DNA of 64,000 bases from Micropruina sonneratiae (GTDB lineage Bacteria; Actinomycetota; Actinomycetes; Propionibacteriales; Propionibacteriaceae). Below the pieces are notes generated by a model. It saw only the letters and a list, made by a program, of their open reading frames with translations. It did no database searches and was not told where the DNA came from. Both the position numbers and the translations under genes were made by a program. Location of the stretch: the NCBI RefSeq assembly GCF_025972045.1, contig NZ_JAPDHX010000001.1, positions 519,181 to 583,180 of the forward strand, written 5' to 3'. Positions 4,728 through 22,199 of this stretch are shown here, in pieces (positions within the stretch are counted from its first letter, which is position 1; every line of letters starts with the position of its first letter).

Positions 4728-5091
4728 ACTGACCTTGCTGAGCGATGTGGAGCCGACCCTCGAGCGGGTCACGGCAGTTGCCGCCACGGTGCACCCGGAC
4801 GGCTCGTACGTCGGCTACCGCGGTGGTGACATCAAGCAGTTCGTGGACGCCACCGGCACCCCGTTGCTGTGCCTGTTCCGGACCCGTCCGGTGCTGGTGG
4901 CCCGCGAGGCCGCGCAGGCCCTGGCCGACCCGCCGACGGCGTTCGCGTTGTGGACCGACCTGACCCTGCCGTACGGCGACGACGGCCGGGGCAGGGCACT
5001 GGCGCAGGCCATCGCCGATGCCGTCGGCGGCGTGCTGGCCGCCCGTTCCGAGGAGGTGGATCATGTCGAGCTGGGACATCAAGCCGGCTGA
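4717..5091 (+). CDS. small ESX-locus protein of unknown function
   Basis: The 124-residue protein starts at an ATG preceded by GGGGAGG and overlaps the end of the previous gene by 11 nt. It contains no membrane segment, signal peptide or recognisable motif. An alternating hydrophobic pattern in residues 15-60 suggests a compact alpha/beta fold. Overlap with genes on both sides marks it as an integral part of the toxin-delivery operon. I do not recognise the family. Confidence 0.6.
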   Translation: MPGELTLLSDVEPTLERVTAVAATVHPDGSYVGYRGGDIKQFVDATGTPLLCLFRTRPVLVAREAAQALADPPTAFALWTDLTLPYGDDGRGRALAQAIADAVGGVLAARSEEVDHVELGHQAG

Positions 5092-5428
5092 GGTGAAGAC
5101 GATCCTGACCACCGTGCAGGACGAGTCCGACACCCTCGGCAAGGCGCTGACCGAGGAGAAGTTCACCGCGATCGGCGAGGGCATCTCCTGGGGCGGCGGG
5201 CTGACCATGGACGTCAGTGCCGCCGTCGGCACCGTGATGGAGGAGCAGGGCGAAAACCTGACCCTGATCCAGAACCACATCAGCGCAGGGATGGCCGGGG
5301 TGTCGAACGCCACCATCGCCTACAACAACGGCCAGTACGACATGGCCGCGACCTTCCAGAGCGAGATGGTCAAGGCCGCTGACAGCGGCGATTTCACGTA
5401 CTTCGTCGACCACGGCTACGGGGAGTGA
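5063..5428 (+). CDS. DUF6507-like ESX substrate or partner protein
   Basis: The 121-residue helical protein starts SSWDIKPAEV, an opening typical of the actinobacterial DUF6507 family of small ESX-associated proteins. A near-perfect AGGAGG site lies just upstream of the ATG at 5063, which overlaps the previous gene by 29 nt. The toxin gene begins three bases after its stop, so this protein probably co-folds with or targets the toxin to the ESX channel, as the small partner proteins of LXG toxins do. The partner role is inference from order. Confidence 0.6.
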   Translation: MSSWDIKPAEVKTILTTVQDESDTLGKALTEEKFTAIGEGISWGGGLTMDVSAAVGTVMEEQGENLTLIQNHISAGMAGVSNATIAYNNGQYDMAATFQSEMVKAADSGDFTYFVDHGYGE

Positions 5429-5431
5429 ACC

Positions 5432-8092
5432 GTGACCAACATGTGCATGGCCAGTGACGCCGGTGGCGGCGGTGGGGACCCCGTCTCCGGTGACGGGCTG
5501 ATCTACCCGGCCGCGCTCCCGGCCAAGTCGGCCGACCTGGACATCGAGGCGATCACCTCCGCGGCGTCCGGGCTGCGGTCGATGGGTCGCACGGTGGACA
5601 AGAAGACCGACGAGATCAAGAAGACGTGGTCGGGGCTCAGTGCCTGCTACGAGGCCCCGGAGCAGGGCCAGGTCTACGCGCTGATGGATTCGCCGGCGAC
5701 GGCGTCCGAGGACGTGAAGACGACCTTCGTCAAAGCCGCCGGCCACCTCGACACCTACGCCGAGGCGCTGGAGCTGATCAAGCCCAAGCTGTCCGACTTC
5801 GAAACCCGCGCGCAGGCGTTCCGGGACGAGGTGATCGGCGGGGTGTGGGTCGACGCCCACGAGGCGTCCGACGCGCACGTCGGCACCTACATCGCGGCCG
5901 GCTGGAACGCCATCACCGGCCAGGACCAGGACCGCAAGCTGGTGCCCTGGAACGAGGACACCGACACCGTCGACAAGAACACGGCCTTCGTCGAGGAGAT
6001 CGGCGCCATCTACGCCGAGGTGTCGCAGGCGGCGTCCACCTGCGCGACCAGCATCAACGGCCTCACCAGCCTGCCGCTGGAGGAGCGGACGGTCGAGCCG
6101 ATCCCCGAGGAGGCGTTCTACAACCCGGAGTCGCCGATGCCGTGGGGCTCGCCGACCGAGGAGGACCGCAACTGTGTGGAGTCGGTCGGCAACGGTGCCT
6201 ACCAATTCGGTGCGGGCACCCTGAACGGCCTGGGTTCGCTGATCAGCTACAACCCCGAGACCGGGGACTGGGGCGACTGGGGCCACGCCGGCCAGGCCTG
6301 GATGGGCACCGGCAACGTGTTGCTCTCGCTGGCCGTCACCGGACTGGGAACCACCGCCTTCAGCATGGTGATGCACTCCACCGGCAACGGCGACAACCCC
6401 GTGGTGAAGTGGCTCGACGAACGGCAGCAGGTGTCGGCGACCGTGGTCAGCGGCCTGGTCGGCATCGACCTGAACGCCGACGATCCCTTCCACAAGTGGA
6501 AGGAGGACGGCGTCTCCACCTTCACCGAGTCGTTCCTGAACGTGGGCACCATGTTCATCCCCGGCGCCGGCCAGGTCGGTGCCGCGCTGAAGGTGGGCAG
6601 CCTGGGCTCGAAGCTGGCCCGCATCACCGGTGCCGTGGCCGACTTCGCCGTGCCGGGCGGCTCGTGGGTGATCAAGGGCGGGCTGCACACCATTCCGGTG
6701 CTGCGCAACGTGCTGAAGTTCGGCGACGAGGTGCCGGTCAACGCCCTGGACAATGTTGCGGACGCCGCTGCCGGGGCCGGTCGCGGACCCACGTTCAACC
6801 CGGCGGCCGCGATCGACGACGTGGTGCCCGACGTGCCGCCGGTCACCCCCGACACCCGTCCGGTCAGCAACGACGCCTTCGGCGGCGACACGCCCCCGAG
6901 CACCCCCGACGTCGACCCGGCGCCCACGCGTCCGGTCAACACGGCACCCGAGGTGGCGACCCCCGACGTGGACCCCGGCCCGGCGCGTCCGGCGAACAAC
7001 GCCCCCGAGCTGCCGGAGGCGACGCCGCAGGGGCGCGAGCCTGAGCCGGCCGCCACGACGCCGGAGGGCCAGCCGGACACGCACCCGGTGGACAGCAACC
7101 CGGAGGCCGCTGCCGACGGCCGACTCCAGACCGAGCCGCAGGCGGACGCGGACCCCCGGCCCGAGCCGGACGCCGACGCCAGGCCGGACGCCGATCCGAA
7201 GCCGGTCACCGACGCCAACGGCAACGAGTTCACCGACGGCCGCTCGCACCGGCCGGGTGACCCGGAGAACACCTTCCGCGACGTCAACGGCAGGCTGCAC
7301 GGCGAGAACGGCACGTTCACCGCCGAGACCCAGCCCGACGTCGACCGGCCCGTCGAGAAGGGCGAACCGGGCACGCCGACCGACCACCCGGTCAGCCCCG
7401 CCGATCAGGCCGCACACGATGCCCGGATCGAGACCCGCAACCAGGCCGAGGTCTCCCTCCAGCAGGCCAACGCGCGGCTGCAGCGGCTGGTGGAATCCAC
7501 CGGCATCGACCCGTCGGTGCTGAAGGGCAGCAAGCGGGACGTGGCCATGCGGATCAGCGAACTGATCGCCGACAACAAGCTGACCGTCAAGGAGGGGCGC
7601 TCGCTGACCAACGCGGTCGTCCACGACAACGTGGCCCGGAACATGCTGCGGAACATCTCCGAGACCATCGGCGACAAGGCCGCCGCGGCGGTCGCGCGGA
7701 TGCGGGGCGAGATCACCCTGATCGGGTCCGGCGGGGCCGGCGCCGGGCGCTTCGACCAGGTCACCCTGGTCGACCAGACCCCGCCGGTGCTCAGGATCTA
7801 TGAGGCCAAGGGCGGCAACAGCCAGCTCGGCAGCCGGATCGTCGACGGAGTCGAGGCGCAGCAGGGCTCGACCCGCTACGTCAACGATCTCCTCCAGGTC
7901 GACCCGCGGCTGGCCCAGTCGCTGAACGACTTCGTGACCAACCCAAGGACGGCCGACTCGGCGCTCGCCGAGGCGATCCGCACCGGCACGCTCAGGATCG
8001 AGTACGACCTCGTCCAGGCGCTGCCCGGTGGCCGGATCAAGGTGACGCCGTTCGTCCTCGACAGCAGCGCACTGAAGCTGCCCGACTTCTGA
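5432..8092 (+). CDS. ESX-delivered polymorphic toxin with PD-(D/E)XK-like nuclease C-terminus
   Basis: The 886-residue protein has a helical N-terminal delivery module (about 1-210), a hydrophobic central region (about 285-400), a long Pro/Asp/Glu-rich linker (about 440-650) and a compact C-terminal domain (about 660-886). In the last part Asp775 (RFDQV) and Glu791-x-Lys793 (YEAKGG) followed by GNSQLGSR and a QGSTRY segment match restriction-endonuclease-fold toxin domains. Such proteins are secreted to kill competitors by cutting DNA or RNA. GTG start at 5432 behind GGGGAG. The two following genes overlap or abut it and are probable immunity or chaperone proteins. Nuclease activity is inferred from motifs only. 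Confidence 0.75.
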   Translation: MTNMCMASDAGGGGGDPVSGDGLIYPAALPAKSADLDIEAITSAASGLRSMGRTVDKKTDEIKKTWSGLSACYEAPEQGQVYALMDSPATASEDVKTTFVKAAGHLDTYAEALELIKPKLSDFETRAQAFRDEVIGGVWVDAHEASDAHVGTYIAAGWNAITGQDQDRKLVPWNEDTDTVDKNTAFVEEIGAIYAEVSQAASTCATSINGLTSLPLEERTVEPIPEEAFYNPESPMPWGSPTEEDRNCVESVGNGAYQFGAGTLNGLGSLISYNPETGDWGDWGHAGQAWMGTGNVLLSLAVTGLGTTAFSMVMHSTGNGDNPVVKWLDERQQVSATVVSGLVGIDLNADDPFHKWKEDGVSTFTESFLNVGTMFIPGAGQVGAALKVGSLGSKLARITGAVADFAVPGGSWVIKGGLHTIPVLRNVLKFGDEVPVNALDNVADAAAGAGRGPTFNPAAAIDDVVPDVPPVTPDTRPVSNDAFGGDTPPSTPDVDPAPTRPVNTAPEVATPDVDPGPARPANNAPELPEATPQGREPEPAATTPEGQPDTHPVDSNPEAAADGRLQTEPQADADPRPEPDADARPDADPKPVTDANGNEFTDGRSHRPGDPENTFRDVNGRLHGENGTFTAETQPDVDRPVEKGEPGTPTDHPVSPADQAAHDARIETRNQAEVSLQQANARLQRLVESTGIDPSVLKGSKRDVAMRISELIADNKLTVKEGRSLTNAVVHDNVARNMLRNISETIGDKAAAAVARMRGEITLIGSGGAGAGRFDQVTLVDQTPPVLRIYEAKGGNSQLGSRIVDGVEAQQGSTRYVNDLLQVDPRLAQSLNDFVTNPRTADSALAEAIRTGTLRIEYDLVQALPGGRIKVTPFVLDSSALKLPDF

Positions 8093-9241: not shown

Positions 9242-9850
9242 TCAGAGCACGTGCTTGCAGCCCCAGGGCTGGAAGCCGCGCTGCTTGTACAGCCGGTTGG
9301 CCGCGGTGATCTGTTCGCGCCAGGTCGCCTTGTGCGGGTACTTGGCGAAGTCCCGGCCACCGACCGAGCGCCAGGTGCCCAGGTTGAACTGCAGGCCACC
9401 GTAGTAGCCGTTACCGGTGTTGATCGACCAGCGCACCCCGGACTCGCACTTGGCGATCTTGCGCCACTTCGACTCCTTGGAGAGGTTGATCGAGTGCTTG
9501 GTGTTGGTGCCGTAGTAGACCTTCCGGGTCACCGGCTTCTTGGTCACCACGGTCTTGACCAGCTTGGTGGTCGACTTGCCGTTCACGGTGGTCACCACGT
9601 AGGTCTTGGTGGCCCTGCCGTTGCGGCCGTCCTGGATCAGCTTCTTGTCACCCTTGAAGAGCTTCGAGGTGTACACCCGGACGCCCTTGTACTTGACGGT
9701 CACCTTCTTGGTGATCGTCTTGGTGGTGGTCTTCGCCGCGGGGGAGGTCAGCGCACCGGTCGTCTGCGCCTGGGCTGGCAGGGCGGTCAGGCCGCCCAGC
9801 AGCAGGGTGGCGCAACCGGCGGTGGCCATCAGTCGGGTGGTGGTGCTCAT
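9242..9850 (-). CDS. secreted Rpf-domain cell wall lytic enzyme (short paralogue)
   Basis: The 202-residue protein has a signal peptide ending near AQA (about residue 28), a G5-like segment (about 45-120) and a C-terminal resuscitation-promoting-factor domain (about 125-202) with the catalytic Glu of KCESG and the [12 protein letters not shown] signature. Rpf domains are lysozyme-like muralytic enzymes acting on peptidoglycan outside the cell. It lies 30 nt after the longer paralogue and shares the G5-Rpf order with it, lacking the three DUF348 repeats. That suggests tandem duplication followed by domain loss. ATG at 9850 behind GGGAG. Confidence 0.9.
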   Translation of the reverse strand: MSTTTRLMATAGCATLLLGGLTALPAQAQTTGALTSPAAKTTTKTITKKVTVKYKGVRVYTSKLFKGDKKLIQDGRNGRATKTYVVTTVNGKSTTKLVKTVVTKKPVTRKVYYGTNTKHSINLSKESKWRKIAKCESGVRWSINTGNGYYGGLQFNLGTWRSVGGRDFAKYPHKATWREQITAANRLYKQRGFQPWGCKHVL

Positions 9851-9880: not shown

Positions 9881-11158
<1,278 letters not shown>

Positions 11159-11267: not shown

Positions 11268-11882
11268 TCAGAACAGGCCGGAAGAGGCGGCCTGCGCCTT
11301 GGTGAAGCGCTCGGTGACGTCGGCCCAGTTGACCACGTTCCACCACGCCTTCACGTAGTCGCCCTTGACGTTGAGGTACTGCAGGTAGAAGGCGTGCTCC
11401 CACATGTCGAGCTGCAGCACGGGCAGCTGGCCGGCCGGCAGGTTGCCCTGCTGATCGAACAGCTGGTTGATGTTGAGCCGCTTGCCCAGGGTGTCCCAGA
11501 CCAGCATCGACCAGCCCGAGCCCTGGATGCCGTTGGCCACCTCGTTGAACTGCTTCTGGAAGCCGTCGAACGAGCCGAAGAACTCGTCGATCGCGGCTGC
11601 GATCTCGCCCTCTGGGCGGCCGCCGCCGTCGGGGGACATGTTCTTCCAGAACACCGAATGGTTGACGTGTCCCCCGAGGTGGAAGGCCAGGTCCTTCTCG
11701 AGCTTGTTGATCGACGCGAAGTCGCCGCTCTCACGGGCCGCGGCCAGCTTCTCCAGCGCGGTGTTGGCACCGGCGACGTAGGTGGCGTGGTGCTTGTCGT
11801 GATGAAGCTGCATGATCTGGCCGGAGATGTGCGGCTCGAGGGCGCCGTAGTCGTAATCGAGGTCCGGCAGCGTGTAGGTCAT
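11268..11882 (-). CDS. sodA: superoxide dismutase (Fe/Mn family)
   Basis: The 204-residue enzyme converts superoxide to oxygen and hydrogen peroxide in the cytoplasm. Metal ligands are visible in the usual places: the HHDKHH cluster from residue 27, [12 protein letters not shown], and [11 protein letters not shown] near residues 160-170. Length is normal for the family. ATG at 11882 is preceded by AAGGAG. Fe versus Mn specificity cannot be decided from these motifs, and some propionibacterial enzymes work with either metal. It is monocistronic, with its own terminator. Confidence 0.95.
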
Positions 11883-12005
11883 CGAGTCTCCTTCGTGGGT
11901 GGCTGTGTGGATCAGGGCCGTTGTCAGCCCCAACCTGCCTCTTGGCCACTCTATTCCGAACGTCGCGAAGCGAAAGCCCCCGTCCGGGCGTAGGTCCCCT
12001 CCGCC

Positions 12006-12830
12006 TCAGGACGCCACGGCCGCCGCGGGGGCGTCCGGCGCGTCCGGGTCCGCGGAGGCCACGGACGCCGCCGCCGGAGCGAAGTCGGCCCGCCGGGCCG
12101 AGCGCCGCAGCAGCCGCAGCAGGGCCGGCCCGGCCAGGGCGATCAGCACCGCGTTGGTGATCGCCCGGCCCAGGTTCCAGCCCATCGACGTGGCGATGTT
12201 GTACAGCACGAAGCGGTGCAGGTTCTCCAGCGGGCCCAGGGTGGCATCGAAGGAGATGCCGGTGTCGTTGCCGACACCGAACGGCCAGAACGCGAAGTCC
12301 ATCACCCAGCCGTACGCGAAGGCCGACACCGCACCGTAGCCGGCCAGCAGCCACACCTCGGCGCGTCCGCCGGCCCGGGGCAGCAGCCCGGCGAACAGCC
12401 CCACGAATCCCGCGGCCAGCATCTGGTACGGCAGCCACGGCCCCACCCCGGAGGTGATCAACGCCGAGGTGAACAGCGTGATCGCCCCGAGCGCGAAGCC
12501 GAAGCCGGCACCGAACACCCGGCCGGCCAGGATCAGGACGAAGAAGACGAGCTCGAAGCCGGCCGTCCCGGCACTGAGCGGCCGCAGGATGGTGCCGACC
12601 GCCGCCAGCACGCCCAGCATCGCCAGTTGCCGGGCGTCCATCCGCCCGCCGGCCACCTCGGACAGCACCACCGCCAGCACCATCGGCAGCACCAGCGCGA
12701 ACACGATCGGCGCCTGCTCGGGTTGCATGCCCGACTCGGGACGCAGGAACAGCGGCCAGCCGAACGCCACGGTGCCGATCACCAGGGCCACGGCGACGGC
12801 CAGCGGTACCCGGGCGCGCGAGCCGGTCAC
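12006..12830 (-). CDS. ECF transporter substrate-binding (S) component, probable cobalamin
   Basis: The 274-residue protein has about six to seven membrane helices and an Ala/Asp-rich tail. It is the last gene of an operon with EcfT and a fused EcfA-EcfA' ATPase, the standard partners of an S component that binds a vitamin and topples in the membrane to release it. The operon follows a B12 riboswitch, so cobalamin or a precursor is the likely substrate, as for CbrT proteins. The GTG start overlaps the ATPase stop (GTGA). No substrate-contact residues can be identified by eye. Confidence 0.8.
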   Translation of the reverse strand: MTGSRARVPLAVAVALVIGTVAFGWPLFLRPESGMQPEQAPIVFALVLPMVLAVVLSEVAGGRMDARQLAMLGVLAAVGTILRPLSAGTAGFELVFFVLILAGRVFGAGFGFALGAITLFTSALITSGVGPWLPYQMLAAGFVGLFAGLLPRAGGRAEVWLLAGYGAVSAFAYGWVMDFAFWPFGVGNDTGISFDATLGPLENLHRFVLYNIATSMGWNLGRAITNAVLIALAGPALLRLLRRSARRADFAPAAASVASADPDAPDAPAAAVAS

Positions 12831-14422
12831 GACAGTCCCCGGGCGACGTCGTCGGGGGTGAGCACCTCGACGGGCGCGAACACCTTGGCCATCTGGGGAG
12901 CGTAGGCGGGCGACGAGGTGAGCACCTCGGTGGTGGTGCCGTCCGCGATCACCTCGCCGTCGGCCATCAGCACCGTGCGGGTGCTGGTCGCGGCGGCGAA
13001 CTCGACGTCGTGGGTGCTGATCAGCACCGCCTCGCCACGGGCCGCGAGGTCGGTCACGATGCGGCGCAGTTCGGCCTTGGCGCGGTAGTCGAGGCCGCGG
13101 GTCGGCTCGTCGAGCAACAGCACCGGCGGCCGGGCGGCCAACTGGATGGCCAGCACCAGGGCCAGCCGCTGGCCCTCGGAGAGATCCCGCGGGTCACGCT
13201 CGGGCGGCAGGTCCACCCCGAGTTCGGCCAGCAGCGCGGCTGCCGTTCCCGGTTCGGCGTCGCTCTCGGCGTCCGCCTGGGCGCACTCGGCGCCGACGCT
13301 GGGCAGATAGAGCAGGTCGACCGCGGTCTGGGGCACCAGGGTCACCAGTCGGCGGGCCTCGGCGGCACCCAGCCGCCGCGGGTCCTGGCCGCGCACCTCG
13401 ATCGCACCCGAGCAGCTCAGTGCGCCCTGCAGCGCCCACAGCAGCGACGACTTCCCCGCGCCGTTGCGGCCCAGCAGGCTGGTCACCGTGCCCTCGGCCA
13501 GCTCGAGGTCGACCCCGTTCACCGCCACCAGGTCGCCGTACCGCACCTCGACGCCGCGGGCCGACAGCGCCACCGGCTCGGTGGGCACCGTCGCCGGGCT
13601 CACCGCGGCGGGCCGCAGCCCCTGGGCCTGCGCGCGGCGCCGGGCGAGACGCACGCTGAGCGGCACCTCGGCCCAACCCACCTCACGCGCCAGCGCGGCC
13701 AGCGGCGGGGTGATCGTGGACTGGGCGAGGACGGCGCCCGGCGGCCCGTGCAGGGCGCTGCCGTCACCGCGCAGCCACAGCACCGAGTCGGCGGCCTGCA
13801 TCACCCGCTCGAGCCGGTGCTCGGCGAGCACCACCGTCAGGCCGACGTCGTGCACCAGGGTGCCGATCGCCGCCAGCACGTCCTGGGCGGCGGTGGGGTC
13901 GAGCGCCGAGGTCGGTTCGTCCAGCACCAGGATGCGCGGCTGGGCGGCGAGCACCGCGGCGATCGCCACCCGTTGCTGCTGGCCGCCGGACAGTTCGGTC
14001 AACGGACGTCGGCGCAGGTCGGCGATCCCCATCAGGTCCAGCGTCTCCTCGACCCGCTTGCGCATGGCGGTCGGTGCGATGCCCAGCTGCTCCATCCCGT
14101 AGGCGATTTCGTCCTCGACGGTGTCGGTCACGAAGCCGCGCAGCGGATCCTGCCCGACGTAGCCCACGACGTCCGCCAGGTCGCGTGGACGGTTCTGCGC
14201 GGTGTCGCGGCCGTCGACCAGGACGCGCCCGGTCAGCGTCCCACCGGTGAAATGTGGCACCAGGCCGTTGATGGCCCCCAGCAGGGTCGACTTGCCCGTC
14301 CCGGTCGCACCGATCACCAGGCACAGGTCGCCCTCGGGCAGCTCGAAGCTGATGTCGTCGAGGGTGGGCCGCTCGGCGTCGGCGTAGGTGACGCCGACCC
14401 GGTCGAACGAGATCACCGCCAT
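12827..14422 (-). CDS. fused ECF transporter ATPase EcfA-EcfA'
   Basis: The 531-residue protein joins two ABC ATPase domains. The first (about 1-250) has Walker A GATGTGKST, signature LSGGQQQRVAIA and Walker B ILVLDEPTSALD. The second (about 290-525) has GRNGAGKSS, a variant signature LSEGQRLALVLA and LLLDEPTRGLD. In many bacteria these are separate EcfA1 and EcfA2 proteins; here a linker of about 40 residues fuses them. The protein powers vitamin import together with EcfT. Start ATG 14422 overlaps the ecfT end by ten bases. The weaker second signature (SEGQ) may reflect asymmetric ATP sites. Confidence 0.92.
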   Translation of the reverse strand: MAVISFDRVGVTYADAERPTLDDISFELPEGDLCLVIGATGTGKSTLLGAINGLVPHFTGGTLTGRVLVDGRDTAQNRPRDLADVVGYVGQDPLRGFVTDTVEDEIAYGMEQLGIAPTAMRKRVEETLDLMGIADLRRRPLTELSGGQQQRVAIAAVLAAQPRILVLDEPTSALDPTAAQDVLAAIGTLVHDVGLTVVLAEHRLERVMQAADSVLWLRGDGSALHGPPGAVLAQSTITPPLAALAREVGWAEVPLSVRLARRRAQAQGLRPAAVSPATVPTEPVALSARGVEVRYGDLVAVNGVDLELAEGTVTSLLGRNGAGKSSLLWALQGALSCSGAIEVRGQDPRRLGAAEARRLVTLVPQTAVDLLYLPSVGAECAQADAESDAEPGTAAALLAELGVDLPPERDPRDLSEGQRLALVLAIQLAARPPVLLLDEPTRGLDYRAKAELRRIVTDLAARGEAVLISTHDVEFAAATSTRTVLMADGEVIADGTTTEVLTSSPAYAPQMAKVFAPVEVLTPDDVARGLS

Positions 14423-15567
14423 GTCGGCTCCGGCTCGGCCTGGGCGCGCAGCAGCCGCACCCGGGTGTCGTTGCGGGTTGATTCGACGGTGGCCGCCCGC
14501 CTCGGCCGGGTCAACGGCAACGGCGCCAGCACCAGCGCGACGACCAGCAGCATCGGCAGGGTGAGGGTCGGCCATTGCAGCGGATCGGTGCTCGGGCTGA
14601 GGGCCAGCGGATCGAGCAGCACCACCAGAGCCGGGCTCATCGTGTCCGGGTCGAGCCAGCCGACGCCCAGCACCAGCACCGCCGCCAGCACCCCCGATGC
14701 GGCGATCAGCGTCTCGGTGAACCGCCAGGGCAACGGCCGGTAGGTGGTCACCCGCAGCCGCGCTCCGGCGGCCCGCAGGCCCAGGCCCCCACCGATCATC
14801 CCGAGTACCAGCAGCCAGGCACCGGTCTGCCAGAACGGGCTGCCGAGCAGCAGGAAGACGCCGAGCGTCGCGGCGGCCGACGAAATCAGCATCACCGGCA
14901 GGGTGCCGGCCGTCGGCAGGCCGCGGGTGCGGCCGAAGCCGCGGGCCTCCATGCCGGCGGCGAGCGCCAGCGACCGGTCGATCGCGTCGGCCAGCACCGG
15001 CATGGCGATGGTGCCCAGCGCGCGCAGGGTCGCGGTCGAGTCGCCCCGCAGGCGGCGCGCACGGCGCACCCGGGCGATGCTCTCGATCAGCTGCGGGGCG
15101 ACGCTCAGCGCGATCACCACCGCGACGGACGCCTCGTACAGGGCCGCCGGCACCGAGCGCAGCGCCTGCCTCGGGTTGGCCAGGGCGTTGGCGGCGCCGA
15201 CGCACAGCAGCATGACCGCCAGTCGGAACGCCTCGTACAGGGTGCCGGTGATCGCCTCGGCGGTGACCGGCCCGCCCAGCGTGATGCCCGCGGCCCATTC
15301 CGGCAGCGGGATCTGGGGCAGGGTGAACAGCACCGTCTCGCCCGTGGAACCCCCGAGCAGGATGCGGAAGAACAGCCGCATGCCGATCACGAACAGCGCC
15401 AGGATCAGGTACGCCCGCACCGAGCGTGCCCAGGGCGCCTCGCTGCGGCGCAGCATCACCACCACGACCATCGCGGTGGCGATCAGTGCGAGCAGCAGGG
15501 GGTTGGTGGTGCCGCTGACGGCGATTCCGATGCCGATCGCCCAGCACCACCAGGCCCAGGGGTGCAC
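14413..15567 (-). CDS. ECF transporter transmembrane scaffold EcfT (CbiQ-like)
   Basis: The 384-residue membrane protein couples the ATPase pair to the S component. It shows several hydrophobic helices and the two cytoplasmic coupling helices with the Ala-Arg-Gly type motif, seen as RVRRARRLRG and GMEARGFGRTRG at about residues 165-220. The C-terminal half adds further hydrophobic segments, making it longer than the usual 260 residues. I choose GTG 15567, six bases after the upstream stop; a CTG overlapping that stop is an alternative. It is translated between a DUF4430 surface protein and the fused ATPase. Confidence 0.88.
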   Translation of the reverse strand: MHPWAWWCWAIGIGIAVSGTTNPLLLALIATAMVVVVMLRRSEAPWARSVRAYLILALFVIGMRLFFRILLGGSTGETVLFTLPQIPLPEWAAGITLGGPVTAEAITGTLYEAFRLAVMLLCVGAANALANPRQALRSVPAALYEASVAVVIALSVAPQLIESIARVRRARRLRGDSTATLRALGTIAMPVLADAIDRSLALAAGMEARGFGRTRGLPTAGTLPVMLISSAAATLGVFLLLGSPFWQTGAWLLVLGMIGGGLGLRAAGARLRVTTYRPLPWRFTETLIAASGVLAAVLVLGVGWLDPDTMSPALVVLLDPLALSPSTDPLQWPTLTLPMLLVVALVLAPLPLTRPRRAATVESTRNDTRVRLLRAQAEPEPTWR

Positions 15568-15572
15568 GCTGC

Positions 15573-16460
15573 TCAGAGTTTCCGTCCCTTCAGCAGCCAC
15601 CAGCCGCCGAGACCGCCGGCGGCGGCGACGACGGTCACGCCGGTGACGATGACGCCGACCGGGCTGCCCGGGCTCGAACCGTCGGCCGTGCCGGCTTGCT
15701 CCTGGGCGACCGTGGCGTCCGATCCGGCGGTGGCCCGGGTCGCCTCGGGCGAGGTCGATGTCTGCGGGCTCGCCGTGTCCGTCGCGGTGGCCGACGCCGT
15801 CGCGGTGGCGCTCCGGGTCGCCTTGGAACTGCTCGTCTTCGTCGCCTTCGCCGACGCGCTCGCCCTGGTCGAGGCGCTGCTGGTGGTCGAGGGCTTGGCC
15901 GAGGTGCGGCCCGGCTTGCTGGTCTTGGTGGTCTTGGTGGTCTTGGTCGGCTTGGGGGTGGGGGTCTCCTCGGTGTTGCTCGGCGGCGACGCCTGCGGCG
16001 GCGTCTTCGGGTCGCTGATCAGCACGTAGCGCCAGCCCTCGGCATCGCCCTGTTTCGGCGTGTAGCTGGTCGCGCCCAGGGTGGAGTAGGTCCAGGCGTT
16101 GTAGCCGCCGTTGCCGTCGGCGGCCGCGTGCCAGTACGACCAGTACGCATTGTTGATGTTGGCCTTGGACGGCTTGCCGGAGATCGTGTAGACGAACCCT
16201 TCGTCGGTCGTGGGCTCGAAGCCGGCGCTGCGCAGCGCGGTCAACCCGGTGGTGTAACTGACCGCGCACCTGCGGGCGACGCCGCCGCCGAGCGAGCCGT
16301 AGTCGACCACCACCCACACCCCACTGCAGGACGCCGCGCGCGGCAGGCCGGTGACCGCCGCGACCCGGCTCTGCGCGGGTTGGGCGATGCCCGCCGCGGC
16401 AGGTGCGCCGGCGCCGGCGACCAGGGTCGCCAGCGCCAGTGCGATGAGGCGCTTCCTCAC
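15573..16460 (-). CDS. membrane-anchored transcobalamin-like (DUF4430) surface protein
   Basis: The 295-residue protein has a signal peptide (about 1-28), a DUF4430 domain (about 42-145, opening CSGVWVVVDYG and ending DAEGWRYV), a long Ser/Thr/Lys/Ala-rich linker (about 150-255), a transmembrane helix and a basic tail GRKL. DUF4430 is the domain related to the C-terminal beta domain of transcobalamin and intrinsic factor. Two Cys residues about 20 apart may form a disulphide. Anchored outside the membrane on a flexible stalk, it could hand cobalamin to the ECF transporter encoded immediately downstream. GTG start overlaps the preceding stop (GTGA). Confidence 0.8.
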   Translation of the reverse strand: MRKRLIALALATLVAGAGAPAAAGIAQPAQSRVAAVTGLPRAASCSGVWVVVDYGSLGGGVARRCAVSYTTGLTALRSAGFEPTTDEGFVYTISGKPSKANINNAYWSYWHAAADGNGGYNAWTYSTLGATSYTPKQGDAEGWRYVLISDPKTPPQASPPSNTEETPTPKPTKTTKTTKTSKPGRTSAKPSTTSSASTRASASAKATKTSSSKATRSATATASATATDTASPQTSTSPEATRATAGSDATVAQEQAGTADGSSPGSPVGVIVTGVTVVAAAGGLGGWWLLKGRKL

Positions 16461-18028
16461 TTGACGACCTTCGCGGTGGCCTTGGAGGTCTTGGCCACGG
16501 TCTGCAGGCCGCTTCCGCTGGCTGTCACCTTGACGGTGATCGTCTTGCCGATGTCGGACTTGGTCAGCTTGTAGGTGGTCTTGGTCGCCTTCGAGATGGC
16601 CTTGCCCGAGCGGTACCACTGCAGCTTCAGCGTCGGCTTCGGCGTCCAGGTTCCCGGCTTGGCGGTCAGCGTCTTGGTGTACTTCGCGGTTCCCGAGATG
16701 GTCGGGGTCGGGCTGCTGGAGTACCCGGCCGGCGGGGGCTTCAGGGCCGAGGTGGACGAGAACCCGCCGTAGTACCAACCCTCTGCGGCCCCCTTCTTGG
16801 GCGCCGACTGGGCGGCGCCGACGTTGTAGGACTGCCATTCGCCCCAGCTGCCGTCGGGGTTGGGGTTGGCGTACCAGTAGCCCCAGTACTTCGACCAGGT
16901 GGCGTCGAGGTTGTACGGGTAGCCGTTGATCCGGTTCACGAAGCCGTTGTCGTCGCCGACGGTCAGCCCGGCGCTCTTCAGCGCCTTCAGGCCGGTTCTG
17001 TACGAGGTGGCGCAACGCGTCGTCGCCTGGCCGTTGCCGCGGTCGACGACCACCCACACGCCGGTGCACGACGTGCTGGACGCCGGCAGCGACGCCGGGT
17101 TGGCCGCGCACGAGCTCAGGTCGATCGAGACGTCCAGGGCGGTCTTCCCGCTGAGCAGCAGCAGGGCGTTGGCGGTGGTCATCGCGTCGGATGCGGTGCC
17201 GGCGTCCAGCGAGTTGGGGAAGCCGCCGTCCTCGTGCTGCACCGACCCGAGCCAGGTCTTGGCGTTGTCGACGTTCTCGCCCGCCGCCTCCAGCGCCGAG
17301 CCGAGCAGGCCGGTGGAGTCGACCGGGGAGTAGGCCTCCCAGTAGCCGTCGTCGGTCTGGTTGTCCTTCGCCCAGCCGACGGCGGACGCGACCTGCGGGT
17401 CGAGTTCACCGATGGCGTCGAGGGCGACCAGGCTCAGCCCCGTGGTGTCCGGGTCGGCGGTGAAGGTGCCCTCGAAGGTGTAGCCGAAGGCTCCGCTGTC
17501 GTCCTGCTGGCTGAGCAGGTTGGTCAGCATCGTGACCGGGATGGACTGGGCCTTGCCCTTGTCCAGCGCGATGATGCCGAGACTCTGGCTGAAGGCCGAC
17601 TTGCTGGGGCCGATCTGGCCGTCGGCGGGCAGATCCTGCTTGACCAGCGTGAGCAGGTCGTAGCCGGCGAACGCGCGCGGGTTGAGCCCGAGCGCCGTGA
17701 CCGCGATCGCCATGTTGGCGGCCCGGGCCTGGTTGACGTCCCCGTCCTCGTTGAACAGGTATCCCTTGGCCTTGTTCTCCAGGCGCTGCGCGAGTCGGCG
17801 CAGGGTGGGGGCGTAGCTGCAGTCCCCGGTGCTGGCCAGGCCCAACGCCGTGGTGATCGCGATTCCGGCCCCGGCGTCCGGGCTGGGCAGGTTGGTGACC
17901 AGGTAGTTGGCCGCCTTCGCCGCGTCCGGTTCCGCCGCGGCGGCGGTCGGTGCGGACGCGATCAGGGCGGACGCCGCGAGGGCGGCCGCAGCCCCGACGG
18001 CCAGCGCGCGCGTGAGTGGTCGTTGCAT
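16457..18028 (-). CDS. secreted alpha/alpha-barrel + DUF4430 protein, transcobalamin-like
   Basis: The 523-residue protein has a signal peptide (about 1-32), an alpha/alpha-toroid of prenyltransferase/terpenoid-cyclase type (about 33-325, with repeated helical pairs and DDGYWEAYSP, EDGGFPNS loops), a DUF4430 domain (about 340-435) and an Ig-like C-terminal domain (about 445-523). Barrel followed by DUF4430 is the two-domain order of intrinsic factor and transcobalamin, which clamp cobalamin between them. It is the first gene after the B12 riboswitch, strongly supporting cobalamin capture outside the cell. There is no LPXTG signal; the Ig-like domain may bind the wall. ATG 18028 follows AGAAGGA. 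Confidence 0.82.
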   Translation of the reverse strand: MQRPLTRALAVGAAAALAASALIASAPTAAAAEPDAAKAANYLVTNLPSPDAGAGIAITTALGLASTGDCSYAPTLRRLAQRLENKAKGYLFNEDGDVNQARAANMAIAVTALGLNPRAFAGYDLLTLVKQDLPADGQIGPSKSAFSQSLGIIALDKGKAQSIPVTMLTNLLSQQDDSGAFGYTFEGTFTADPDTTGLSLVALDAIGELDPQVASAVGWAKDNQTDDGYWEAYSPVDSTGLLGSALEAAGENVDNAKTWLGSVQHEDGGFPNSLDAGTASDAMTTANALLLLSGKTALDVSIDLSSCAANPASLPASSTSCTGVWVVVDRGNGQATTRCATSYRTGLKALKSAGLTVGDDNGFVNRINGYPYNLDATWSKYWGYWYANPNPDGSWGEWQSYNVGAAQSAPKKGAAEGWYYGGFSSTSALKPPPAGYSSSPTPTISGTAKYTKTLTAKPGTWTPKPTLKLQWYRSGKAISKATKTTYKLTKSDIGKTITVKVTASGSGLQTVAKTSKATAKVVK

Positions 18029-18044
18029 CTGGATCCTTCTCTCG

Positions 18045-18225
18045 GGTGGGCACCGAGCGGACTCCGGACGGGGTGAACCGGGCTCCCCTGCGTGCCACGA
18101 CAGGTGATGACGAGCCGGAGGCCGTCCAGGCATTCCGGCTTCACCATTGCTGGTGTCACGGTTGCGGGTCAGCCCCGGATTCGCACCGGGTTCCCCTGCG
18201 CGGGCTCAGGTGGGCGACAGCCTAG
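18045..18225 (-). promoter_or_regulatory. cobalamin (B12) riboswitch
   Basis: Read on the minus strand, the region contains the conserved core of the cobalamin riboswitch in order: GGGGAACCCGGTGCGAATCC, GGGGCTGACCCGCAACCGTG, then AAGCCGGAATGCCTGG. It sits 20-200 nt upstream of the first gene of the uptake operon, and the ribosome-binding site lies just beyond it. Binding of adenosyl- or other cobalamin would repress the downstream surface proteins and ECF transporter. Edges are approximate because the outer P1 stem is not clear to me. Confidence 0.93.
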
Positions 18226-18239
18226 CCCCGTTTCCCCGG

Positions 18240-19334
18240 TCAGGATGTGCGGTTCCGGGAGGATGCGACCCCCATCGCACCCAGGGTGACCAGCAGCAGC
18301 CCGCCGGCGACCCAGCCGACCGTCGGATCCGTGCCGCTGGGGGTGGCCACCAGCGGCTCGTCGGTGGCGGGCTGCTCGCCCGGCTGCTCGTCCGGCGACG
18401 CGGTGCGGCCGAGCGTGAGGTAGGTGGTTCCGGTCAGGGCGAAGATGCCCTGCTGGGTGGCGAGCAAGTTCGCCTCGTCGTCGGTGCCGGTGGTCAGGGC
18501 GCCCGAGTCGAGTTGCTGCGAGACGACGTACTCGGCGGCCTTGGTGGCCTGCGCCGTGCCGGTCACGAACAGCGAACCCACCATGCCGGTGGAGTTGACC
18601 GGCGAATAGTTCTGCCACGAACCGTCCTCGGTCTGGGTGGCTGCGAGCCAGCCCAGGGCATCGGTGGCGGCGTCGACGGCTGCCTCGGTACCCGCGGCCT
18701 GCAGCCCCAGCACCGCCAACGCGCTGCTGTCGGGGTCGGCGGCCGGGCAGTCGCCGTCCTTGGCGAACGGGTAGGTGCTGCAACCGAAACCGCCGCCCTC
18801 GGCGCCGTCGCGCGGCTCCTGGTAGGTGAGCAGGTAGGTGACCATCGGCTCGGGCACCTGCTGGCCGTTGCGGGCCAGGGCCACCATGGCGAGGCCGGAG
18901 GCGAACGGACCGGGCCACGCGCCGAACGCCCCGTCGGCGCCGATACCGGCGGTGATCTGGGCGAGCAGGTCGACGCCGCCGAAGTCGGTGGCCGATTCGC
19001 CGGTGGCCGCGGCCACCAGGGCCAGCTTGGCTGCGCCCGAGTCGCCCCCGGCGTCGGGCTTGACGTAATCGGCCGCCCCCGTCTTCAGGAAGTCCAGGAT
19101 GCCGGCCACGTCGGCGTCGTACTTCGGGTCACCGGTGGCGACCAGGGCCAGCAGCGAGTCCGCCGCCGAGCCGGGCTCGCCGTAGGGTGCCGCCGCGTCG
19201 GCCCCGAAGGTCGAGACGATGTAGTCGGCCGCCTTGAGGGCTTCGGGCCCGGCGGCCCGGGCGATGCCGGCCAGGGGGCCGGCGGTCAACAGCAGGGTGA
19301 CCAGCAGCAGCGCGGACAGTCGAAGGTGGGTCAT
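18240..19334 (-). CDS. surface-anchored alpha/alpha-barrel protein
   Basis: The 364-residue protein has a signal peptide (about 1-27), a helical toroid domain related in pattern to the barrel of the downstream riboswitch-controlled protein (loops EDGSWQNYSPVNSTGM closely match DDGYWEAYSPVDSTGL), a charged Pro/Glu linker and a C-terminal membrane helix followed by RNRTS. It lacks DUF4430. It ends just before the riboswitch and is therefore transcribed from its own upstream start. A role in cobalamin binding is inferred from similarity and position. ATG 19334 behind AAAGGA. Confidence 0.75.
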   Translation of the reverse strand: MTHLRLSALLLVTLLLTAGPLAGIARAAGPEALKAADYIVSTFGADAAAPYGEPGSAADSLLALVATGDPKYDADVAGILDFLKTGAADYVKPDAGGDSGAAKLALVAAATGESATDFGGVDLLAQITAGIGADGAFGAWPGPFASGLAMVALARNGQQVPEPMVTYLLTYQEPRDGAEGGGFGCSTYPFAKDGDCPAADPDSSALAVLGLQAAGTEAAVDAATDALGWLAATQTEDGSWQNYSPVNSTGMVGSLFVTGTAQATKAAEYVVSQQLDSGALTTGTDDEANLLATQQGIFALTGTTYLTLGRTASPDEQPGEQPATDEPLVATPSGTDPTVGWVAGGLLLVTLGAMGVASSRNRTS

Positions 19335-19366
19335 GGCCGATCCTTTCCCAGGTCTTGTCACCCTAA

Positions 19367-19404
19367 CCGAACAGGCACGCCCGGTGAGGGGCGTGCCTGT
19401 TCGG
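19367..19404. terminator. 16-bp hairpin between two leftward genes
   Basis: Perfect stem 19367-19382 with 19389-19404 around a six-base loop. It lies 28 nt after the stop of the acidic helical gene and 33 nt before the barrel-protein start, so it terminates the former or attenuates transcription into the latter. Confidence 0.75.
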
Positions 19405-19431
19405 TCGGTCGTGGGCGCGAAGCGTAGCTCC

Positions 19432-19827
19432 TCAGCCGATCGGCTCCTCGCCGGCCTCCTCGGCCTTCGCGGCGGCCGCCTCGGCGGCGTCGGAAGTCGC
19501 TTCCGTGACACCGTCCACCGCGTCGGCGGCGGCCTCCTTGGCGGCGGCCAGGTTGTCCTGGGCTGCGGCCGCGGCGTCGTCGAGCGGGGCGCTGGTGTCG
19601 TCGAACCCGCCGTCGAAGTGGTCCTTGATGCTCTCGAAGGCTTCACTGCCCTTGTCGAGGGCGCTGTCGGCGAACCCCTTGATGTTGTCGCCGGCGTCGG
19701 AGGCGAACTCCTTCACGTTGTCGAAGGCGTCCTCGGCGAACTCACGGACCTGGTCGCCGACCTCCTTCGCCTTGGCCACCAGGCCGTCGAAGAAGGTGTC
19801 GTCGCCGCTGGCGTTGTCGTCTGCCAC
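19432..19827 (-). CDS. Ala/Asp-rich helical hydrophilic protein
   Basis: The 131-residue protein is almost wholly amphipathic helix rich in Ala, Asp, Glu, Lys and Phe with loose 11-residue periodicity (for example FAEDAFDNVKEFASDAGDNI). Such composition recalls LEA-like, apolipoprotein-like or YtxH-type stress proteins. It has no signal peptide or membrane helix. GTG start at 19827 with AAGGAG upstream is preferred over an upstream in-frame start lacking a ribosome-binding site. Function unknown; a stress or membrane-coating role is only suggested by composition. Confidence 0.7.
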   Translation of the reverse strand: MADDNASGDDTFFDGLVAKAKEVGDQVREFAEDAFDNVKEFASDAGDNIKGFADSALDKGSEAFESIKDHFDGGFDDTSAPLDDAAAAAQDNLAAAKEAAADAVDGVTEATSDAAEAAAAKAEEAGEEPIG

Positions 19828-19877
19828 GTCGTTCTCCTTGGTCGTGTGGGCAGCGGGTCTGGCCCAACGCGCCAAGA

Positions 19878-20501
19878 CTAGGCACCTGGGGCGTCACCGG
19901 GAAGGACGCCGGGGCGCGCAACCGCGAAGACGCGGAAACCCTTCGCGCTGGCCGTTCGTGCGCAGGCCCACCCGGACTCGACCAGCCAGCGCTGCAGTGA
20001 GTCGGCGCCCAGGTTGCGGCCGACCACCAACCGGGCCACGCCGTCGTCGGCGAGCCGCGGCAGCCAGGTCGACAGCAGGTCGTGCAACGCCTGCTTGCCG
20101 ATCCGGATCGGCGGGTTCGACCACAACTCGTCGTAGCGGACGCTCGGGTCGGCCCCCTCCGGGGTGAGGGTGTTGACCCGGTCACCCACGCCGTGGGCCG
20201 CCGCGTTGTCCGCGCACAGGGCCAACGCGCGCGGGTTGACGTCGACGGCGTCCACCACGGCCCCGGGGCAGGCGCTCGCCAGCGCGACGGCGAGCACTCC
20301 CCAGCCGCAGCCCAGGTCGAGCAGCCTGGACGCCCCGGCCGGCGGTGGCGCCGACCGCAGCAGGACGGCGGTGCCCAGGTCGAGGCCGTCGGCGGAGAAC
20401 ACCTCGTTGGCGGTGGTGAACGTCCAGTCGGTGTCCCAGAACCGGGCGGTGATCGTGCGGCGCTTCTCGGGGGCCGACGGCTCGGCGAAGTAGTGGCTCA
20501 C
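19878..20501 (-). CDS. RsmC-like class I methyltransferase
   Basis: The 207-residue protein has the methyltransferase small (MTS) domain: SAM-binding DLGCGWGVLAVALA near residue 65 and the catalytic NPPIRIGK motif near 130, typical of enzymes that methylate the N2 amino group of guanine in rRNA (RsmC/RlmG). It corresponds to the catalytic half only, as in many actinobacteria. The GTG start overlaps the truA stop (GTGA), placing it in an RNA-modification operon with truA and trmB. Exact target base is unproven. Confidence 0.85.
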   Translation of the reverse strand: MSHYFAEPSAPEKRRTITARFWDTDWTFTTANEVFSADGLDLGTAVLLRSAPPPAGASRLLDLGCGWGVLAVALASACPGAVVDAVDVNPRALALCADNAAAHGVGDRVNTLTPEGADPSVRYDELWSNPPIRIGKQALHDLLSTWLPRLADDGVARLVVGRNLGADSLQRWLVESGWACARTASAKGFRVFAVARPGVLPGDAPGA

Positions 20502-21313
20502 TGGGAGGTCTCCAAACTGCGGACGGCGCGGGCCGCCAGCGCGCGGGCGGCCAGTTCGCGATCCGGCGGGTAGCCGACCTCCTCCAGGGTCAGGCCACCG
20601 GCCGGCATCACCCGCACCTCGGCGGCCCGCTGCCCGGCGTCCAGCAGGCCGACGAGCCAGTCGGGCTCGCGGCGTCCGGTGGCGACGGCGACCAGCGCCC
20701 CGACCAGGGAGCGCACCATGGAATGGCAGAACGCGTCGGCCAGGACGGTGATCTCGGCCACGTCGTTCCAGGCCCGGCGGGCCGACAGCTGCAGCAGGTT
20801 GCGAATCGTGGTGGCTCCCTCGCGCTGCTTGCAGAAGGCGGCGAAGTCGTGCAGGCCGAGCAGCCGCGGGGCGACCGCGTTGATCCGCTGCAGGTCCAGC
20901 TCGGCGCGCAGCACGGTGGTGTGGATGCGCAACAGCGGGTCGGGCACCGAGTCGGCGATCCGGTACACGTATCGTCGCCAGATGGCTGAGAACCGGGCGT
21001 CGAAGCCGGGCGGTGCGATGCCGACCCGGCGGACGACCACGTCCGGGGGTAGCACGTTGCGCAGCTTGTAGGAGAGGTCGGCGACCATCCGGTCCGGATC
21101 GGCCGGGTCGGGAATGTCCACGTGGGCGACCTGTCCGCGGGCGTGCACCCCCGCGTCCGTGCGACCGGCACAGGTCAGGGTGACCGGCTCGGTGAGCCGC
21201 AGCACCCGCGGGATCCAGGCCTCCAGCTCCTCCTGGACGGTGCGCAGCCCGCGCTGCCCGGCCCAGCCATGGAACTCGGTGCCGTCGTAGGCGATGTCGA
21301 GCCGCAGCCTCAC
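20498..21313 (-). CDS. truA: tRNA pseudouridine(38-40) synthase TruA
   Basis: The 271-residue enzyme isomerises uridines 38-40 of the tRNA anticodon arm. The catalytic Asp lies in CAGRTDAGVHARGQVAH near residue 52, and the C-terminal FCHSMVRSLVG segment is also conserved. GTG start at 21313 overlaps the trmB stop in a GTGA, and its own stop overlaps the rsmC-like start. In many actinobacteria truA follows rplQ; here it is grouped with trmB. Confidence 0.95.
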   Translation of the reverse strand: MRLRLDIAYDGTEFHGWAGQRGLRTVQEELEAWIPRVLRLTEPVTLTCAGRTDAGVHARGQVAHVDIPDPADPDRMVADLSYKLRNVLPPDVVVRRVGIAPPGFDARFSAIWRRYVYRIADSVPDPLLRIHTTVLRAELDLQRINAVAPRLLGLHDFAAFCKQREGATTIRNLLQLSARRAWNDVAEITVLADAFCHSMVRSLVGALVAVATGRREPDWLVGLLDAGQRAAEVRVMPAGGLTLEEVGYPPDRELAARALAARAVRSLETSQ

Positions 21314-22038
21314 TGCCTGACCCCTTCCCGGATGCCGTAACACAGGTCGCGGATGGCGCGGCCGGCCGCGATCCCCTTGGCTTCGTAGCGGCTGTGTGGT
21401 CGATCCTGCCAGCGCGGCGCCCAGCCGTCGAAGCGGTTGACCAGCGCGGGCTCGGCGTCCAGCACCGCACGGATGGCCTCGGCGTAGCCGGGGTCGTCGG
21501 TGGCCAGCCGCCACACCCCGTCGGCGGCCAGCTTGCGAGCGGCGAGGGCGGCGAAGGCCGGCGAGACCAGCCGGCGCTTGTGGTGCCGCTTCTTCGGCCA
21601 CGGGTCGGGGAAGAAGGTCCACAACTCGGCCAGGGCGGCGTCCGGGATCAGGGTGGTGAGGCCCTCGACACCGTTGGCCACCACCACCCGCACGTTGTCT
21701 ACGCCGGCCCGGGCGCACTTCGACAGGGTGCTGGCCACCGCCGGCTCGAAGACCTCGAAGGCGACGTGGTTGCGTTCGGGGTGCAGGGCCGCGACTGCTG
21801 CGATCACGTCGCCGGTGCCGCCGCCGACCTCGACCACCAGTGGAGCCCGGCGGCCGAAGGCGTCCGCCCAATCGAGGTGGGCGTCGGGGGCGACCGACGT
21901 GCTGCGTTGGCCGGTCGGCACCCGCAGGACCCAGTCGGCATGGTCGCGCCAGGCCTTCTCCTGGCTGGGATTCATCCGGGCGCTGCGCCGGACGAACGAC
22001 ACCACCTCGCGCTGCACCACCGGCCGCGCGTCACCCAT
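21310..22038 (-). CDS. trmB: tRNA (guanine46-N7)-methyltransferase TrmB
   Basis: The 242-residue SAM-dependent enzyme makes m7G46 in tRNA. The SAM loop EVGGGTGDVIA lies near residue 80 and the family signature FFPDPWPKKRHHKRRL near residue 155. The ATG at 22038 gives a normal length; an internal Met at MNPSQEK is possible. It heads the trmB-truA-rsmC overlapping operon. Confidence 0.95.
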   Translation of the reverse strand: MGDARPVVQREVVSFVRRSARMNPSQEKAWRDHADWVLRVPTGQRSTSVAPDAHLDWADAFGRRAPLVVEVGGGTGDVIAAVAALHPERNHVAFEVFEPAVASTLSKCARAGVDNVRVVVANGVEGLTTLIPDAALAELWTFFPDPWPKKRHHKRRLVSPAFAALAARKLAADGVWRLATDDPGYAEAIRAVLDAEPALVNRFDGWAPRWQDRPHSRYEAKGIAAGRAIRDLCYGIREGVRQ

Positions 22039-22199
22039 GACGATCAGCCTAGCCAAGCCGCGGGGGTGCCCGGACGTCCCTGCACCGTCGCCCTGGAACG
22101 ACCCTGAACACCCGCCGCCGAAGGCCGGGCTCGCTGAGGGGTCGGTCACACTGGAGATGCGGCGCACCCCCGCGCGCCCACGAAAGGTTCCCGACACCC

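Follow-up and report, generated by a model that had tools for sequence, protein, structure and literature searches.

This study focused on a gene cluster of the actinomycete Micropruina sonneratiae, encoded on the minus strand of a 64,000-nucleotide stretch of its 3.5 Mb genome (hereafter the window: positions 519,181 to 583,180 of contig NZ_JAPDHX010000001.1; coordinates below are positions within it). The cluster is probably a cobalamin-repressible operon for corrinoid uptake, in which surface proteins would capture the ligand for an energy-coupling factor (ECF) importer. Gene content and order, linkage to a riboswitch, the fold of the products and their remote homologies are shown here by computation; that the ligand is a corrinoid, that it is clamped between two domains, and that it is handed over to the ECF complex, we infer. 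The features of the cluster, all on the minus strand, are as follows.

18240–19334 (−): B0, SCO2321-like protein with signal peptide, alpha/alpha barrel and C-terminal transmembrane anchor; 5' of the riboswitch
18129–18195 (−): cobalamin riboswitch, sub-gathering match to the RF00174 aptamer core, in the operon leader
16457–18028 (−): P0001, 523 amino acids, secreted; signal peptide, alpha/alpha barrel, transcobalamin-like beta domain and immunoglobulin-like (Ig-like) tail
16733–17068 (−): beta domain of P0001 (residues 321–432), remote DUF4430/SLBB homologue
16460–16723 (−): Ig-like C-terminal domain of P0001, with model strands between residues 443 and 515
15573–16460 (−): stalked beta-domain protein, SCO2322-like; signal peptide, beta domain, stalk and C-terminal transmembrane anchor
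14413–15567 (−): EcfT, transmembrane coupling component; PF02361 (2.2e-8, 34.4 bits, cut-off 25)
12827–14422 (−): EcfA-EcfA', two fused ABC ATPase domains; PF00005 (2.4e-52, two stretches)
12006–12830 (−): ECF S component (substrate binder), 274 amino acids; PF12822 (4.3e-8), probable remote CbrT relative

Gene organization

The initial annotation, made from the letters of the window alone, had described a riboswitch core followed by a secreted barrel protein, a stalked protein, EcfT, fused EcfA-EcfA' and an S component. All of these were found in that order on the minus strand of positions 12006–18225, and the ECF genes were confirmed by matches to PF02361, to two ABC domains and to PF12822. 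The ECF transporter set is complete, with T component, two ABC ATPase domains and S component together. From P0001 to the S component, adjacent genes share 4 to 10 bases or are separated by 5, as is typical of an operon. The best NCBIfam models for the ATPase were TIGR04521 (1.1e-79) and TIGR04520 (2.4e-79), both below their curated cut-offs. In the stalked protein the beta domain occupies 16011–16352, the stalk is rich in Ser, Thr, Ala and Lys, and the NCBIfam model SCO2322_fam matched with 21.2 bits (3e-4) against a cut-off of 85. Two features had been overlooked: B0, the anchored barrel gene 5' of the riboswitch, and the Ig-like C-terminal domain of the secreted P0001. B0 matched SQHop_cyclase_C (2.2e-7) and NCBIfam SCO2321_fam (8.6e-12; 44.6 bits against a cut-off of 300).

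Linkage to a cobalamin riboswitch

The RF00174 match at 18129–18195 reached 30.8 bits (E 5e-6), slightly short of the gathering score (31.5), with the conserved core aligned. An Rfam scan of the whole window returned no family at its gathering score, leaving the site outside RF00174 by cut-off; taken alone, the score is borderline. Minimum-energy folding of the leader alone gave no riboswitch support (z 0.01), and no RF00174 match was present ahead of B0 (19300–19900).

The position of the match was followed in relatives. Two sets of genomes were used. A contig scan with the S component gave 359 relatives, of which the best 80 were kept as loci, and 25 genomes were picked from these for diversity. 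A second set comprised 17 of the 20 Actinomycetes genomes above the SCO2322 cut-off (G223, G224 and G243 were left out). For the 25-genome set, 28 of 135 RF00174 rows were used, picked by position and assigned to loci by coordinate and strand. A match on the same strand, 35–572 nt 5' of the next barrel or beta domain, was detected in 23 of the 25 operon genomes (E≤0.01); 16 of the 23 were above gathering score, and a motif search of the locus DNA confirmed the core at the same place in 11. The two without a match there were Cutibacterium porci (L080) and Nostocoides jenkinsii (L084). Ahead of SCO2322-family genes, 14 of the 17 Actinomycetes genomes had an RF00174 match, eight of them above gathering score. 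The remaining three were G240 and G145, which belong to genus g38, another member of which (G257) has a match, and G208, where the gene starts about 490 bases from a contig end. Chance would be expected to give about 0.013 genomes in the 25-genome set and 0.004 in the 17-genome set, an estimate that presumes uniform placement and a 700-nt stretch; the G244 and G258 matches lie farther off, 1.3–1.5 kb from the SCO2322 domain. The riboswitch core originally proposed for this leader is upheld by the sub-gathering score together with a position conserved in these relatives.

In Micropruina glycogenica (L056), separate RF00174 matches belong to the gene for the anchored barrel (3208–3339) and to the fused gene (4511–4658), while in the window only the second, fused-gene riboswitch was detected.

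Resemblance of the surface proteins to transcobalamin

The barrel of P0001 was well modelled, with a mean pLDDT of at least 85 in 25 of 27 ten-residue blocks (residues 41–310), and the beta domain poorly (pLDDT 40–71 by blocks). When the model of the protein encoded at 16457–18028 was compared to solved structures with Foldseek, ranks 1–13 were all transcobalamin or intrinsic factor (E 3.6e-8 to 1.4e-6). These hits spanned both domains (406–457 alignment columns, about 16% identity), with a root-mean-square deviation (rmsd) of 16–19; the high rmsd means that the order of the domains matches and their placement does not. VIA-align superimposed P0001 on intrinsic factor 2pmv with Z 21.7, rmsd 3.1 and 236 residues aligned. 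Taken with the DUF4430 profile comparison below, the Foldseek result bears out the two-domain order of transcobalamin and intrinsic factor that had been claimed for this protein.

At the sequence level the barrels are filed elsewhere. Of 55 barrels, 45 matched the Pfam model SQHop_cyclase_C at E≤0.1, 35 matched Prenyltrans and six the eukaryotic cobalamin-binding family PF01122 (best 4.4e-6). The window barrels gave no match to PF01122 at E≤1, and by this measure are not PF01122 members. A barrel profile aligned to transcobalamin-1 over positions 57–299 of the 300 in the profile. An active squalene cyclase was considered for the barrel and rejected; the sequence similarity is strong, but the activity is unlikely for a secreted protein in a B12-regulated operon.

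The beta domain had been labelled DUF4430. Pfam DUF4430 (PF14478) matched neither P0001 nor the stalked protein at E≤1, and nothing in the host genome at E≤0.001; among 69 beta domains only two matched at E≤1 (best 0.0029). A profile comparison (hhalign) of the 69 beta domains with 13 DUF4430 domains gave probability 95, E 3.9e-8 and score 48.1, compared to scores of at most 13.0 for one reversed and 29 shuffled controls, and DUF4430 proteins of Lactobacillales matched the beta-domain profile with probability 93 and E 3.3e-7 (hhalign E-values are for single comparisons). Profile comparison thus establishes the beta domain as a remote homologue of DUF4430, not a Pfam member: the relationship stands, while the Pfam model makes no DUF4430 call in either protein. 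Searched against solved structures, the beta-domain profile found nothing relevant.

Seven loci with curated Pfam DUF4430 matches, from 60 genomes drawn from the phylum, were also inspected. Five have a cobalamin (L149, L150, L152, L155) or AdoCbl-II (L151) riboswitch upstream, on the strand of the DUF4430 gene and within about 3 kb; all but L149 (six loci) contain ECF genes, and four, L150, L152, L154 and L155, contain a barrel. One of them, L155, holds together a curated DUF4430, a beta domain (1e-7), a barrel, EcfT, an ATPase and a cobalamin riboswitch. Our own DUF4430 model was trained on these seven loci, and its matches there carry no evidential weight. Two of the loci contain long frames (stop to stop) of 1538 and 1886 codons with two and three tandem DUF4430 domains (L151 7002–7730 and L153 7328–8386, respectively), adjoining a single-domain DUF4430 gene and ECF genes.

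Probable relationship of the S component to CbrT

The window S component has the S-component fold. VIA-align placed FolT (7nnt) best with Z 13.1, and FolT was also on top in Foldseek; the CbrT structure 6fnp was not among the fold matches listed, which excludes nothing. The link to CbrT came from profiles. The actinomycete S profile matched that of seven CbrT homologues with probability 87, E 4e-6 and score 45.6 over 168 columns, compared to probability 2.9 and score 21.3 for BioY and scores of at most 17.8 for one reversed and nine shuffled controls. One of the seven homologues is tied to solved CbrT 6fnp (5.5e-21). The S components of five DUF4430 loci stand closer to CbrT (probability 99.7, E 3.6e-27) and also matched the actinomycete S components (probability 99.6, E 1.6e-24). 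By this comparison the window S component is probably a remote relative of CbrT.

Co-occurrence, which the initial annotation had proposed to survey, was found in two forms: retention of the operon in relatives, detailed below, and the neighborhood of CbrT in Lactobacillales. On Lactobacillales plasmids, the CbrT homologue has a DUF4430 gene overlapping it, next to it or no more than 5 kb away in all seven loci read, six of them from 37 records with a CbrT homologue and one (L176) chosen via its DUF4430 gene and so biased. The seven are not independent, because the DUF4430 proteins of L176 and L187 are near-identical. A gene for B12-dependent ribonucleotide reductase is present in four, and one for corrinoid adenosyltransferase in three. 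Six of the seven (not L187) were scanned with Rfam and gave no family at cut-off. A further plasmid, L177, found via DUF4430, carries an ECF S gene that is only a candidate CbrT, with cobS nearby.

Conservation of the operon and B12 physiology of its hosts

Relatives keep the operon across Actinomycetes; the best 80 loci of the S-component scan include members of Propionibacteriaceae, Nocardioides, Knoellia, Tetrasphaera, Kytococcus, Lentzea, Actinokineospora and Longispora. EcfT is present in 69, of which 57 have more than 4.5 kb of upstream sequence; among these 57, a beta domain was found in 53, a barrel in 45, and both in one frame in 12. In 33 of the 57, barrel and beta domain are encoded separately and never fused; 25 of these 33 split loci have on both sides a member bearing a hydrophobic C-terminal segment. 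Propionicicella superfundia (L072) and Nigerium massiliense (L092) carry operons of the split kind. By the simple hydropathy test used to call anchors, such a segment ends 27 of 37 barrel-only frames and 50 of 67 beta-only frames. The beta domain precedes the barrel within one frame in L066, L067, L070, L071, L085 and L091. In L024 (about 5900–7930) a beta-barrel frame is followed by a second beta gene, and the 15 kb locus gave no match for EcfT, EcfA or the S component.

SCO2322 was above cut-off in 20 of 60 genomes of the class. Fourteen of the 17 loci in the second set were fetched (G208, G244 and G258 are not among them); T-AA'-S genes lie beside SCO2322 in 13 of the 14, and a barrel in nine. 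Matches to SCO2321_fam (53 of 97 genomes of the order, none above cut-off) were not used, the model also responding in Bacillus subtilis.

B12-binding domains are present in all 26 operon genomes. CbiC, of corrin-ring synthesis, was undetected in eight of these 26 and in 12 of the 17 SCO2322 genomes, several of which are draft or metagenome assemblies. The operon riboswitch is the only RF00174 match of its genome in nine of the 17 and two of the 25, and all 11 are without a CbiC match. Actinomycetes with the operon and without a CbiC match include Knoellia koreensis, Phycicoccus sp. Soil802, Kytococcus aerolatus and Pedococcus sp.

Proposed mechanism

At high levels of corrinoid in the cell, the riboswitch would turn the operon down, as expected from the known behaviour of its family. 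When corrinoid is scarce, transcobalamin-like surface proteins would be exported: the barrel and beta-domain protein, the stalked beta-domain protein, and the anchored barrel from the upstream gene. The corrinoid may then be clamped between barrel and beta domain, as in transcobalamin, and the stalked beta domain may hold or receive it beside the CbrT-like S component, which with the EcfT-EcfAA' motor would move it into the cell.

For many of the actinomycetes with the operon we tentatively suggest a split transcobalamin, an idea that is somewhat doubtful at present, in which separate barrel and beta halves, both anchored in the membrane, would close on the corrinoid directly above the S component and so load the ECF importer as a two-part clamp. 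The suggestion comes from the 33 of 57 unfused loci, 25 of which have an anchored member on each side. The window operon represents the fused, secreted form, unlike the split loci.

Alternative explanations

A number of observations weigh against uptake of corrinoids by way of transcobalamin-like proteins. VIA-align ranks terpene cyclases (Z 23.3) over intrinsic factor (Z 21.7) for P0001, and the barrel profile is nearer to squalene-hopene cyclases (1.5e-47) than to transcobalamin-1 (2.6e-4); the barrel alone is not specific, because its fold is common to cyclases and mannanases. It was undetected in 12 of 57 loci and in five of 14 SCO2322 loci. Four Cutibacterium loci (L080, L081, L082, L117) retain T-AA'-S although neither a barrel nor a beta gene was detected in them, so the ECF part can do without the surface proteins, and C. 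porci (L080) is also without an RF00174 match at its ECF genes. As regards the S component, FolT (Z 13.1) and the metal S component 4m58 (Z 13.0) tie by fold, the closest sequence match among solved S components, a weak one, is FolT (0.01, 0.22), comparison of the S profile with a single CbrT homologue failed (probability 0.96), and no family model above cut-off names a substrate. The window host itself has CbiC (8.4e-65) and, next to a gene for a FecCD permease, a further weak RF00174 match (E 0.0019), so that the operon need not be the sole or main B12 route there, and would supplement synthesis, not replace it. The observations on barrels and Cutibacterium would suit an ECF importer of B12 whose barrel and beta proteins act otherwise, for example in binding cell-wall glycans, with their likeness to transcobalamin being that of a shared old fold: the likeness of the barrel to terpene cyclases and other alpha/alpha toroids is no weaker than its likeness to transcobalamin, and the T-AA'-S genes of the four Cutibacterium loci persist without the surface proteins. 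We regard this as quite improbable, given that both domains match transcobalamin in order, that in the majority of the genomes examined one riboswitch precedes both barrel and beta domain, and that DUF4430 genes alone occur near CbrT homologues in Lactobacillales.

It is unlikely, though it deserves some weight, that what the operon imports is not complete cobalamin but precursors of corrinoids, incomplete forms (cobinamide, cobyrinate) or lower-ligand bases, with surface proteins that bind a range of ligands. Characterised CbrT supports growth on cobalamin and cobinamide (PMC5997447), and the window host has corrin-synthesis genes near riboswitches, so that an importer of the complete vitamin is not strictly needed. 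Against this, the eleven genomes without CbiC, in which the operon is the sole RF00174 locus, fit the uptake of a usable corrinoid. That the cluster is a cobalt importer for corrin synthesis seems highly improbable. EcfT does match Pfam CbiQ, cobalt transporters are also found under cobalamin riboswitches (PMC3766115), the S model aligned over 197 residues with 4m58 compared to 161 with FolT (at equal Z, and with a worse rmsd for 4m58), and one related S component showed a weak CbiM match (0.0016, below cut-off). The window S component, however, matches PF12822 and not CbiM at E≤1, and the S alignment is without the N-terminal Met-His motif that is a feature of CbiM and NikM. Absence of CbiC is common among the operon genomes, the host carries CbtA separately, next to a riboswitch, and cobalt import leaves the transcobalamin-like surface proteins unexplained. 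An importer of another vitamin, folate, was set aside, since FolT is the nearest solved relative but folate import misfits a cobalamin riboswitch; it is mentioned as a caution only.

Relation to known systems

ECF importers are usually described as binding substrate via the membrane S component alone, and capture of B12 outside the Gram-positive cell is a poorly known area. B12 elements and CbrT were reportedly named in comparative-genomics papers of 2003 and 2009. The reading of the cluster as an uptake system draws support from the domain order, the riboswitch linkage and the probable remote relation to CbrT, but the idea is not new, having been put forward for bacterial relatives of this kind by Burroughs et al. 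in 2007 (PMC1796856). The SLBB operons of that paper resemble the present one in combining CbiO/CbiQ-like genes with a secreted toroid and SLBB proteins, and the hosts it lists for the clade, besides animals, are low-GC Gram-positives, planctomycetes and, less often, euryarchaea (PMC1796856). Hosts of such operons are usually without B12 synthesis; the window host has CbiC, and CbiC was undetected in eight of 26 and 12 of 17 operon genomes. The window operon differs in its actinomycete host, in a beta domain that has diverged beyond the reach of the Pfam DUF4430 model, and in its cobalamin riboswitch; the word riboswitch is absent from the main text of the paper (PMC1796856). The window operon is, then, a divergent actinomycete member of the kind predicted in 2007.

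With the animal carriers transcobalamin, intrinsic factor and haptocorrin, P0001 shares two domains in the same order; it differs in its low identity (about 16%), its Ig-like tail, the separation of the domains in many relatives, and in that cobalamin binding is only predicted. ECF-CbrT has in common an ECF module, an S component with remote profile similarity to CbrT homologues, and the occurrence of CbrT homologues near DUF4430 genes, while the window operon has dedicated T and AA' genes, barrel proteins, and a longer S component (274 compared to 182 amino acids in the 6fnp chain). Freshwater actinobacteria of the acI lineage have an ECF module with cobalamin riboswitches that was predicted to be a B12 transporter (PMC5301498); the module is likened to the window operon by its description, in which transcobalamin-like surface proteins are not mentioned (PMC5301498). 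A proteomics table for Lacticaseibacillus lists an 'Additional lipoprotein component of putative cobalamin ECF transporter' (PMC9963975). The NCBIfam families SCO2321 and SCO2322 have locus-tag names and no function, and the window barrel and stalked proteins score far below their cut-offs.

In the open-licence literature, we found no report of the actinomycete branch as transcobalamin-like, of its frequent split form, or of riboswitch linkage together with surface proteins in that branch; the DUF4430-CbrT link was not found beyond the Lacticaseibacillus annotation, nor was a bench test of the 2007 proposal. The riboswitch-linked gene set and the link to CbrT make that proposal directly testable in actinomycetes without a CbiC match. 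If true, it would give a role to two NCBI families named by locus tag only, and it bears on the origin of animal intrinsic factor and transcobalamin. A split transcobalamin, if real, would provide a bacterial model for the B12 carriers of animals, and perhaps represent the arrangement ancestral to them.

Other features of the host and neighborhood

Besides that of the operon, the host genome has six RF00174 matches, one of them at C12:297899. Four lie by NrdAB, corrin-synthesis genes, CbtA and the FecCD permease, and another by an integrase-like gene. The strongest in the host (C1:1011906–1012092, L188) is 5' of the class I genes NrdA and NrdB, for a B12-independent enzyme. The integrase-associated match (C1:890627–890742, L189; 28.7 bits, sub-threshold) is in an odd position, just 5' of the phage-integrase-like gene.

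Domains similar to the Ig-like tail of P0001 (residues about 436–523, with matches to about 434–521) recur in many large proteins of the host and related genomes, some with dozens of matches, and the tail may on this account be a tether or spacer.

Upstream of B0, genes recognised by eye as trmB, truA and rsmC occupy 19878–22197 (−), with a small frame (19432–19875) between. The same three, again by eye, stand directly ahead of EcfT in Cutibacterium L080 and L117 (about 4600–7000), and it looks as if the barrel and beta genes were lost in these Cutibacterium, or inserted elsewhere. Directly 3' of the S component is a gene (11268–11933, −) that we take to be superoxide-dismutase-like, and beyond it are two neighbouring genes (9242–9850 and 9881–11086, both −) for secreted proteins with similar C-terminal domains, which resemble resuscitation-promoting factors.

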